DNA of 64,000 nt from the NCBI RefSeq assembly GCF_003351405.1, contig NZ_CP031240.1:558001-622000 (forward strand), written 5' to 3'. A model generated the notes under the pieces. The model ran no database searches. It saw nothing but the letters and a program-made list of their open reading frames with translations, and was not told the origin of the DNA. The position numbers were made by a program, and so were the translations under genes. Of the stretch, positions 4,376 through 63,568 are shown piece after piece. Position 1 is the stretch's first letter. Each line of letters begins with the position of its first letter. The DNA is from Haemophilus haemolyticus. GTDB taxonomy: Bacteria; Pseudomonadota; Gammaproteobacteria; Enterobacterales; Pasteurellaceae.

Positions 4376-6452
<2,077 letters not shown>

Positions 6453-61658: not shown

Positions 61659-62162
61659 CTATTTTAATAACGAATCATCGAGTGCCAAATCTTCATTTTT
61701 ATTCACGCCCACACCGCGTGCGATAACATTTTTTGCAATTTCGTGTGCTTCTTCCAAAGAATGTTCCGTATAAGTACCACATTGATAAATATTTAATTCA
61801 GGGATAGTTGTTTGATCTTGCACACCTAAAATATCTTGCATTGAAGCTAACCAAGCTTGTGCTACTTGCTGTTCATTTGGCCTACCAATCAAGGACATAT
61901 AAAATCCCGTGCGACATCCCATCGGAGAAATATCAATAATTTCAACGCTATCGCTATTTAAATGATCACGCATAAAACCCGCAAACAAATGTTCAAGCGT
62001 ATGAATACCTTTTGAAGGAAGAATTTCTTTATTTGGAATACAGAAACGTAAATCAAAAATGGTAATGTCGTCACCTTTTGGCGTGCGCATCGTTTTTGCA
62101 ACACGTACCGCTGGTGCATTCATTTTGGTATGATCCACTTTAAAACTATCAAGTAATGGCAT
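61659..62162 (-). CDS. luxS: S-ribosylhomocysteine lyase LuxS
   Basis: LuxS cleaves S-ribosylhomocysteine to homocysteine and the AI-2 precursor DPD. The 167-residue enzyme shows the metal-binding [14 protein letters not shown] and the distal Cys in [14 protein letters not shown], plus [18 protein letters not shown] precedes the ATG. Two candidate small RNAs lie divergently upstream. Confidence 0.98.
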
Positions 62163-62232
62163 AAAGTTTTCCTTATAAATCAGTAAATTAAAAATAAATT
62201 TGAATAAATGTTCATTTTTTGCAAATTCTAAT

Positions 62233-62260
62233 GAACTTTATGGCAAGGCTCATTGTCTTA
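62233..62260 (+). promoter_or_regulatory. SigmaE-like promoter of candidate sRNA copy 1
   Basis: GAACTT (62233-62238), a 17-base gap and TCTTA (62256-62260, within GTCTTA) resemble the sigmaE consensus (GGAACTT, 15-17 bases, GTCTRA). The copy-1 RNA would start about four bases later at AAC. Confidence 0.5.
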
Positions 62261-62261
62261 T

Positions 62262-62340
62262 GTAACAAGCAACTTGCAGTTGTTTTAATAAAATTGGTTC
62301 CTTAGGTTATTTGCCCCGCATTTATTGTGGGGCTTTTTTT
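62262..62340 (+). ncRNA. Candidate small RNA, copy 1
   Basis: A ~76-base unit has a 5' hairpin region (AAGCAACTTGC), an AT-rich middle, an anti-Shine-Dalgarno-like GGTTCCTTAGG, and a terminator (GCCCCGCA / TGTGGGGC, then seven T). It has no reading frame of note. A second copy with three or four substitutions starts at 62408. It lies divergent from luxS, where enterobacteria carry the micA sRNA. Confidence 0.6.
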
Positions 62341-62377
62341 ATCCCGAATTTTCATTTAAAAAATTTTCAGAAAATTT

Positions 62378-62404
62378 GAACTTTCTCATAAAGTGCTAGT
62401 CTCA
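62378..62404 (+). promoter_or_regulatory. SigmaE-like promoter of candidate sRNA copy 2
   Basis: GAACTT (62378-62383), a 16-base gap and TCTCA (62400-62404, within GTCTCA) match copy 1 in both boxes while the spacer sequences differ. Conservation of just the boxes supports promoter function. Confidence 0.5.
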
Positions 62405-62405
62405 T

Positions 62406-62484
62406 AGAACAAGCAACTTGCAGTTGTTTTAATAAAATTGGTTCCTTAGGTTATTTGCCCTGCATTCATTGTGGGGCTTTTTCT
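62406..62484 (+). ncRNA. Candidate small RNA, copy 2
   Basis: Repeats copy 1 over ~75 bases. A C-to-T change in the terminator stem (GCCCTGCA against TGTGGGGC) keeps pairing as U-G, and a second change is in the loop, so structure is maintained. The T run is slightly broken (TTTTTCTTG). It ends just before the convergent yqaA stop. Confidence 0.6.
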
Positions 62485-62492
62485 TGCGCATT

Positions 62493-62966
62493 TTATAATA
62501 AGAATGGTGCACTAAAAAACAATAACACAACATAACGAACCAGTTTTCCAAGAAAGATAAAGACGCTACTTGCTACAAAATTTAATCTTAACCAACCAGC
62601 TATAGCGCAAAATAAATCACCAACTACAGGTAGCCAGCTTAAAAGTAAAGTAATCGCCCCATAACGCTTTATCTGATTCATGGCCCATAAAGTGCGGTGA
62701 TTTTTAGGATCAAATTTTGGCATCCATCGCCCAATCCCGTAAGTAGTTAAACTCCCTAATCCATTGCCAAGCGTGGCGAAAAAAACGAGTGCCAATATAT
62801 CTGTACTAAATAAAGATCCCAACACTAATTTAGGTACAGCAAGAGCAACAAACACAACTTCTGAATTACCTGGTAATACTGTTGCACTCAGAAATGCACT
62901 GACAAACATAAGGCATAACGCATGAGTTTGCCAAAAATCAGCGCTAAAAAATGAAAAAATATCCAT
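62493..62966 (-). CDS. yqaA: YqaA family membrane protein (DedA/SNARE-associated)
   Basis: The 157-residue protein has about four hydrophobic segments and the DedA-like pattern GNSEVVFVALAVP, GNGLGSLTTYGIGRWMP and LLSWLPVVGDLFCAIAGWLR. The family is thought to act in phospholipid flipping. Its ATG shares a base with the upstream yqaB stop (TAATG). Confidence 0.9.
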   Translation of the reverse strand: MDIFSFFSADFWQTHALCLMFVSAFLSATVLPGNSEVVFVALAVPKLVLGSLFSTDILALVFFATLGNGLGSLTTYGIGRWMPKFDPKNHRTLWAMNQIKRYGAITLLLSWLPVVGDLFCAIAGWLRLNFVASSVFIFLGKLVRYVVLLFFSAPFLL

Positions 62967-63568
62967 TATCTTGGCGAAATGATTTCTCGTGTACGCACAT
63001 CAAACACGTCCATTCCCGCATTTAATCCCGCCTGCACGCCTAAATCAGCATCTTCAAATACAATACAACGACTTGGATTTGCTTGAATTAATTCCGCACA
63101 ACGTAAAAAGGTTTCTGGATGCGGCTTATGTTCTTTTACATCATCTGCACTGACAATTGCATTAAAGTAAGGTGCGATAGCCAGTTTATCCATCAACATA
63201 TCAATAATTTTACGGTGTGAGCCAGAACCTAGAGCAATCGGCTTTTTTTGATGGAAAAATTTAACAATTTCAAAGGTTGGCAATAACTTTGATTGAGTCG
63301 GAATAAGTTGATAAGACAACTCACGTTTTGCAGCCAGCACATCCTCAATTCGATCAAGTGGCATATTCGCCGCTTTCATCATTTCCCCGGCAATAGTTCG
63401 AACCGTCGCCCCACCTAAGTTATACATAATTTGGCTATCAAATTCATAGCCAAATCGCTCTCCCACCATCGTCCAAGCCTGTGCATGCACGGGCATTGTA
63501 TCGATTAAAGTTCCATCCATATCAAAAATCAATCCTTCATATGGATTGAACATCTCATAATCTAACAT
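62966..63568 (-). CDS. yqaB: HAD-family sugar phosphatase YqaB
   Basis: The 200-residue haloacid-dehalogenase phosphatase has the nucleophile motif IFDMDGTLIDTMP (residues 15-27), ALGSGSHRK (motif II), and the late FEDADLGVQAG (motif IV). E. coli YqaB hydrolyses fructose 1-phosphate and related sugars. AAGGA precedes the ATG. It is cotranscribed with yqaA. Confidence 0.93.
   Translation of the reverse strand: MLDYEMFNPYEGLIFDMDGTLIDTMPVHAQAWTMVGERFGYEFDSQIMYNLGGATVRTIAGEMMKAANMPLDRIEDVLAAKRELSYQLIPTQSKLLPTFEIVKFFHQKKPIALGSGSHRKIIDMLMDKLAIAPYFNAIVSADDVKEHKPHPETFLRCAELIQANPSRCIVFEDADLGVQAGLNAGMDVFDVRTREIISPR

Follow-up and report, generated by a model that had tools for sequence, protein, structure and literature searches.

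The region adjoining luxS in Haemophilus haemolyticus (positions 62229-62484 of the window, i.e. the whole stretch of 64,000 nt that was analyzed) holds two similar units in tandem, and the question is what they encode, which promoters serve them and on what an RNA transcribed from them might act. A previous sequence-only reading had described two nearly identical units of ~75 bases with unlike upstream regions, and the comparison of the two copies agrees with this description. The bodies 62264-62340 and 62408-62484 are identical at 74 of 77 positions, whereas the 60 bases 5' of each body match at only 22 of 60. The would-be transcribed part has therefore been conserved, while the promoters have diverged except for their boxes, which are GAACTT and GTCTYA with spacers of 16 and 15 bases, as had been proposed. 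Based on the box positions and the point where identity begins, the probable start sites lie near 62266 and 62410, slightly 3' of the 62262 and 62406 proposed earlier. The features of the locus are listed in Table 1.

Table 1 Features of the JA04 locus in the window, and loci of JA04 copies with a second type of promoter
Feature	Position or locus	Strand	Basis
luxS (S-ribosylhomocysteine lyase), divergent neighbour	61659..62162	-	NCBIfam NF002602, 324.5 bits; 71% identity to E. coli LuxS
sigmaE-type -35 box GAACTT, copy 1	62233..62238	+	whole-genome pattern search
sigmaE-type -10 box GTCTTA, copy 1, 16-base spacer	62255..62260	+	whole-genome pattern search
JA04 sRNA copy 1 (putative transcript, ~76 nt)	62266..62341	+	RF02732 match, fold
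5' hairpin, copy 1	62267..62285	+	predicted fold
Seed region UUGGUUCCUUAGGUUAU, copy 1	62294..62310	+	UUCCUUA conservation, mostly unpaired
Intrinsic terminator, copy 1 (stem-loop and T run)	62313..62340	+	predicted fold
sigmaE-type -35 box GAACTT, copy 2	62378..62383	+	whole-genome pattern search
sigmaE-type -10 box GTCTCA, copy 2, 15-base spacer	62399..62404	+	whole-genome pattern search
JA04 sRNA copy 2 (putative transcript, ~76 nt)	62410..62485	+	RF02732 match, fold
5' hairpin, copy 2	62411..62429	+	predicted fold
Seed region, copy 2 (same as copy 1)	62438..62454	+	sequence comparison
Intrinsic terminator, copy 2 (one C-G to U-G)	62457..62482	+	sequence and predicted fold
yqaA-like gene, convergent neighbour	62493..62966	-	48% identity to E. 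coli YqaA, 130 aligned positions
yqaB-like phosphatase gene	62966..63568	-	TIGR02009, 217.2 bits; 42% identity to E. coli YqaB
Second JA04 copies with GTAAA-N5-GTAAA (≤1 mismatch) and TATAAT-like -10	L040-L042, L044-L046, L048-L050, L054, L082, L083, L110		

Judged by the Rfam covariance models, both units are tandem copies of the catalogued small RNA JA04 (RF02732), a family that the earlier reading had not recognized. Copy 1 matches at 62269-62351 with 88.9 bits and copy 2 at 62413-62494 with 95.3 bits, which places both above the gathering cut-off of 81 and agrees with the small RNA reading; the E-values are 9.1e-13 and 3.9e-14 for a scan of the whole 64,000-nt window. Elsewhere in the window, an ordinary FMN riboswitch is found at 4380-4557 on the minus strand (113.3 bits). 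Near-identical tandem units could also represent a repeated DNA element without any RNA gene, and scattered copies elsewhere had been considered earlier. In the 1.92-Mb genome, however, RF02732 matches these two sites and no others, the promoter is fixed, and the terminators of JA04 vary yet keep their stem. In the window itself, a C to T change turns one C-G pair of the terminator into U-G, so that pairing is kept as claimed. A repeated DNA element has next to no probability.

JA04 was detected at E ≤0.01 in 95 of 140 Pasteurellaceae genomes (above the cut-off in 53) by a search with stricter filters that loses weak matches, so that absence means absence as seen by this search. The 14 control genomes gave no match. 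Among contigs of GTDB species, the 20-base JA04 core occurs in 52 stretches, all but one of them under a Pasteurellaceae name. The exception is a record labelled "Pseudomonas stutzeri NCTC11607" (L152), which appears to be a Pasteurellaceae genome of the Rodentibacter group. Loci were fetched for 119 of 123 matches, the remaining four having E-values of ~0.001 to 0.007. A confident set of 117 copies from 24 genera was obtained by excluding G031 (34.9 bits) and G082 (39.2 bits), both without luxS. Two matches are present in seven of the ten genomes of the same genus as the window, one of the seven with a damaged copy, and the tandem state is not universal. G065 is the sole member of this genus without a JA04 match, yet it keeps the porin leader site discussed below. 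In G121 (L093), two sigmaE-type copies lie ~1.35 kb apart and not in direct tandem.

The genomic neighborhood of JA04 is conserved on the luxS side. luxS adjoins 116 of the 119 fetched copies and is divergent in all 116; the exceptions are G013, G031 and G082. The gene order in the window is luxS(-), two JA04 copies (+), yqaA(-) and yqaB(-), compared to luxS(-), micA(+), gshA(-), yqaA(-) and yqaB(-) in E. coli K-12. The yqaA-like protein gave no match to NCBIfam. JA04 is thus located between luxS and yqaA-yqaB on the same strand as the E. coli MicA RNA (RF00078), which is of similar length and likewise preceded by a sigmaE-like GAACT...GTCTGA, but the JA04 locus lacks the intervening gshA. The RNAs themselves differ. 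Their longest common word is 7 bases, and the conserved seed of JA04 sits in the middle of the RNA, whereas that of MicA is at the 5' end. RF00078 was absent among the Rfam matches up to an E-value of 5 in the region 61800-62800, while the same model detected E. coli micA as a positive control with 83.9 bits; identity with MicA was rejected. By gene order and sequence comparison, JA04 sits in the micA position but its body is not MicA, in line with both parts of the earlier proposal. RybB and VrrA are sigmaE-dependent sRNAs of enterics and Vibrio, and their regulatory logic (sigmaE control, action in trans, porin repression) is that proposed here for JA04. Their loci differ from that of JA04, and their sequences were compared through the Rfam scan of the window alone.

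The promoter motifs make an assignment of JA04 to sigmaE very probable. GAACTT-N15/16-GTCNNA is found 5' of 102 of the 117 confident copies (119 fetched), 6-10 bases before the model start, and a count over both strands of the same loci (801,722 nt) gives 105 matches altogether. With one copy taken per genus, the motif is present in 23 of 24 genera with kept boxes and differing spacers, although the search pattern itself fixes most letters of the boxes. In the H. haemolyticus genome, GAACTT-N14-18-GTCTNA has seven matches versus three for a reversed control. Three of the seven lie within open reading frames. The four intergenic ones precede rpoE, rpoH and the two JA04 copies, with RpoE and RpoH identified by NCBIfam. 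Dependence on sigmaE is well established for rpoE and rpoH, and this genome-wide company, like the recurrence across genera, strengthens the promoter type first suggested by the two copies of the window. JA04 would belong to the sigmaE class of sRNAs, presumably transcribed by sigmaE from the place where E. coli has micA.

A different mode of control is on record, since the first description of JA04, from Aggregatibacter actinomycetemcomitans, placed it under Fur regulation (as cited in PMC4144887). The Aggregatibacter RNA belongs to the same sequence and structure family as the units of the window, which in contrast to the first description are in tandem, have sigmaE-type promoters and show no Fur box. 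PMC4144887 describes the orthologue of nontypeable H. influenzae (NTHi) as free of Fur regulation, with no predicted Fur box nearby and no expression in mid-log growth. The silence in mid-log phase is what is expected of a stress promoter, and equally of a silent locus. Six promoters were compared with the Fur box (two from the H. haemolyticus genome, four from the Aggregatibacter group); the best matches reached 10-11/19 versus shuffled means of 11.5-11.8. The Aggregatibacter copy in G014 bears GAACTT-N16-GTCATA. As no Fur-box-like site rose above the shuffles in the sequences of these six copies, Fur control was rejected, and an iron-regulated, Fur-repressed JA04 is considered very unlikely despite the original report.

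The predicted fold of both copies begins with a small hairpin at the 5' end, followed by 27 open bases that include UUGGUUCCUUAGGUUAU and by a terminator with a U run. The fold of copy 1 has an energy of -21.5 kcal/mol (z -2.59), with 4 of 200 shuffles equal or better; that of copy 2 (-18.6 kcal/mol, z -1.82), equalled by 9 of 200, exceeds the shuffles only by a modest margin. The sequence-only reading had pointed to an exposed UUCCUUA in the middle of the RNA. The motif lies at 62298-62304 and 62442-62448, and the folding model also predicts it to be open, with a mean unpaired probability of 0.85 in each copy. Of the 117 JA04 copies, 115 keep it and 97 have the extended form GGUUCCUUAGGUUA. 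In single-sequence folds of 116 copies, its mean unpaired probability is 0.81 (lowest 0.28). A GC-rich stem followed by a T run is present in 111 of 117 copies in 30 different outer five-base forms, a count that is no test of covariation because the search of each copy requires pairing. A consensus fold with each genus represented by a single copy (energy -0.23) was uninformative, since the terminators misalign and trimming at the first T run had truncated some sequences.

The search for targets centered on the leaders of the ompP2 porin genes. The H. haemolyticus genome encodes two adjacent ompP2-type porins (G000:C1:1172526-1176071) with nearly identical leaders, the L197 porin gene having ACAATAAGG where the L205 porin gene has ACCATAAGG. 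Before the ATG, one leader reads AACAACCATAAGGAATACAAATT and the other AACAATAAGGAATACAAATT. Pairing was scored with the JA04 of each genome, skipping identical leaders, and a leader was counted if no more than 10 of its 200 shuffled versions paired as well. This bar was reached in 15 of 23 leader-sRNA rows. Five of six Haemophilus (g1) genomes have ompP2 leaders at -15.6 to -20.9 kcal/mol (0-4 of 200 shuffles), and the sixth, G064, gave -11.6 and -12.8 kcal/mol (14/200 and 9/200). Three leaders of the H. parainfluenzae group range from -16.5 to -16.8 kcal/mol (0-3/200), seven of the Rodentibacter group from -12.5 to -17.4 kcal/mol with five of the seven at ≤10/200, and one leader of g14 is at 4/200. 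The eight rows that missed the bar are from Pasteurella (g35), Caviibacterium (g10), g11, g14 (one), the Rodentibacter group (two) and G064 (one). The earlier suggestion that the RNA acts on ribosome-binding sites or porin mRNAs therefore has in silico support for Haemophilus, the H. parainfluenzae group and most Rodentibacter-group leaders, but not for these eight rows.

Since the seed resembles an anti-Shine-Dalgarno sequence, some pairing with ribosome-binding sites is expected by chance. JA04 might be driven by sigmaE and still act as a broad anti-Shine-Dalgarno mimic on mRNAs with UAAGGA sites, with porins not its main targets. With a 30-nt seed, the two ompP2 leaders (-14.6 and -14.7 kcal/mol) come out narrowly ahead of all 55 genes of the window (best -14.0); among 500 shuffled seeds, 23 match the pairing of one leader and 8 that of the other. 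The rpmG mRNA pairs more strongly (-19.7), sdhE ties (-14.8) and tonB reaches -13.0 kcal/mol, gene names having been given by eye from the translations. The complement of the 17-base seed (wobble, ≤1 mismatch) is not enriched in the whole genome, with 33 matches (two of them self) versus 38 for the reversed control. Among the 29 of these 33 that were read in context (one self), only rpmG and sdhE are located at start codons; tonB was found with a second pattern. YYTAAGGAAY has 21 matches genome-wide (two self) versus 50 for its control. TAAGGAA-N2-12-ATGAARAA has 15 versus 1, both ompP2 genes included, but this pattern enriches any gene with that form of Shine-Dalgarno sequence. Against the broad mimic, complementarity in the porin leaders of Haemophilus is conserved over a longer stretch, with bases beyond the Shine-Dalgarno sequence taking part. 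We regard the broad mimic as an appreciable but minor possibility, and predicted pairing gives a moderate preference to repression of the ompP2 porins by JA04.

A related seed is found in Rna01 of Actinobacillus pleuropneumoniae. According to PMC9577009, Rna01 is encoded between sbcB and eriC, has a sigmaE-type promoter, a predicted single-stranded seed and predicted porin targets, and its deletion led to increased ompP2B in stationary phase (p < 0.10) and an altered outer-membrane profile. By analogy, the deletion result reported there may be counted in support of a porin role of JA04. The Rna01 sequence (locus L274) contains UUUCCUUAGGUAAG, and its seed includes UUCCUUAGGU, the core common to JA04. 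Both RNAs occur in Pasteurellaceae with sigmaE-type promoters but differ in their locus (sbcB-eriC versus luxS) and in their 5' part. A common 10-mer is only modestly unlikely by chance, as 37 of 3000 shuffled pairs share at least 10 bases. Three Rna01-type loci were scanned with Rfam and gave no match at gathering. In the literature searched, no report of a link between JA04 and Rna01 was found, and JA04 goes unmentioned in the main text of PMC9577009.

In these searches, the two RNAs appear in different genomes. Of 140 genomes, 25 contain the exact Rna01 core TNATTTCCTTAGGTAAG, and JA04 was matched in none of the 25, an exclusivity that is inflated by the relatedness of the genomes; in the H. 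haemolyticus genome, the core has no match at ≤1 mismatch. The 47 genomes without a confident JA04 comprise these 25, two with a one-mismatch core and promoter (G090 and G093), and 20 in which the searches found neither. Of 30 fetched core matches (0-1 mismatch), 23 are Rna01-like, 20 with the strict sigmaE motif and three with a GAACTA form, and the other seven lack such a promoter. Porin leaders scored with the Rna01 seed reached the bar of 10 in 200 in none of eight rows, only four of which came from Rna01-bearing genomes.

The strict sigmaE motif is missing in 15 of 117 JA04 copies. All 15 have GTAAA-N5-GTAAA, which we take to be the CpxR box of E. coli, upstream at ≤1 mismatch (10 exact), versus 13 of 102 sigmaE copies (8 exact); the background is 42 exact and 123 at ≤1 mismatch in 783,718 nt of loci on both strands. 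One of the 15, the G028 copy (196716), carries GAACCT, which departs from the sigmaE box at one base, and another, G033, is a single copy with no matchable -10. Each of the remaining 13 is the second copy of a tandem and has a TATAAT-like -10; they come from the Actinobacillus seminis group, Avibacterium, Caviibacterium and Necropsobacter. The eight sigmaE copies with the exact box come from these groups as well, so that the CpxR-like box may have been present in both copies there for a long time. The seed is changed (e.g. GATTCCTTAAGTTA) in the sigmaE copy of the seminis and Avibacterium groups, whereas the sibling keeps the common one. For the sensor kinase, the CpxA_peri Pfam model was dropped as too insensitive in Pasteurellaceae (17 of 140 genomes). 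A protein query from L271 (E 1e-40) found a CpxA-like protein in 123 of 140 genomes, so presence does not discriminate, and some of these proteins may be something other than CpxA, as the best matches of some genera are as low as 34-38% identity. A suggestive case is G026, which alone among seven Avibacterium-group genomes lacks a CpxA-like match and also alone has a single JA04. This sole copy keeps the exact GTAAA-N5-GTAAA box, which counts against a box that needs CpxA.

Tandem duplication could simply have left behind a second copy that has no separate function, and within the genus of the window the tandem is unstable. By eye, G062 (L111) and G063 (L112) each have an apparently fused single copy, upstream like copy 1 and downstream like copy 2, and copy 1 of G061 (L109) is damaged in its seed and terminator. 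On the other side, both copies of the H. haemolyticus genome have intact boxes, seed and terminator, and two matches are the state of most genomes of the genus, the damaged one included. A by-product is considered unlikely. More tentatively, and with less confidence than the readings favored above, the sigmaE seed UUCCUUAGGU of Pasteurellaceae might be interchangeable, carried by either of two RNA genes that look unrelated, JA04 in the micA slot or Rna01 at sbcB-eriC, but not by both. In the four groups with CpxR-type siblings, JA04 might then have been doubled so that one RNA answers two envelope alarms, the first copy through sigmaE, perhaps with help from CpxR, and the sibling through a CpxR-type promoter that lacks sigmaE boxes.

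The best explanation of the locus, which the sequence evidence makes fairly likely, is a tandem of JA04 genes in the micA slot, each with its own sigmaE promoter, whose RNAs probably repress ompP2 under envelope stress. Family membership, the promoter motif and its company in the genome, gene order, seed conservation and a predicted structure were read from the sequences, and from these we infer transcription by sigmaE, the use of Hfq and the repression of ompP2. When outer-membrane folding fails, sigmaE (RpoE) would produce the ~76-nt JA04 from the separate promoter of each copy. The open UUGGUUCCUUAGGUUAU, presumably together with Hfq, would pair across the Shine-Dalgarno sequence of ompP2 mRNA and probably of other mRNAs too, which would block porin translation and unload the envelope.

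While the RNA family is known, the sigmaE assignment across Pasteurellaceae, the micA-slot synteny, the seed core in common with Rna01 and the CpxR-type siblings appear to be new. If the explanation is true, a catalogued iron sRNA would be re-assigned to the envelope-stress response, and Haemophilus and much of Pasteurellaceae would gain a counterpart of MicA and RybB at the expected locus, with the ompP2 porin as a testable main target. One seed core at two loci, together with the CpxR-type siblings, would then be a clean case of sRNA regulon rewiring in which only the locus, only the promoter or only the seed has been retained.
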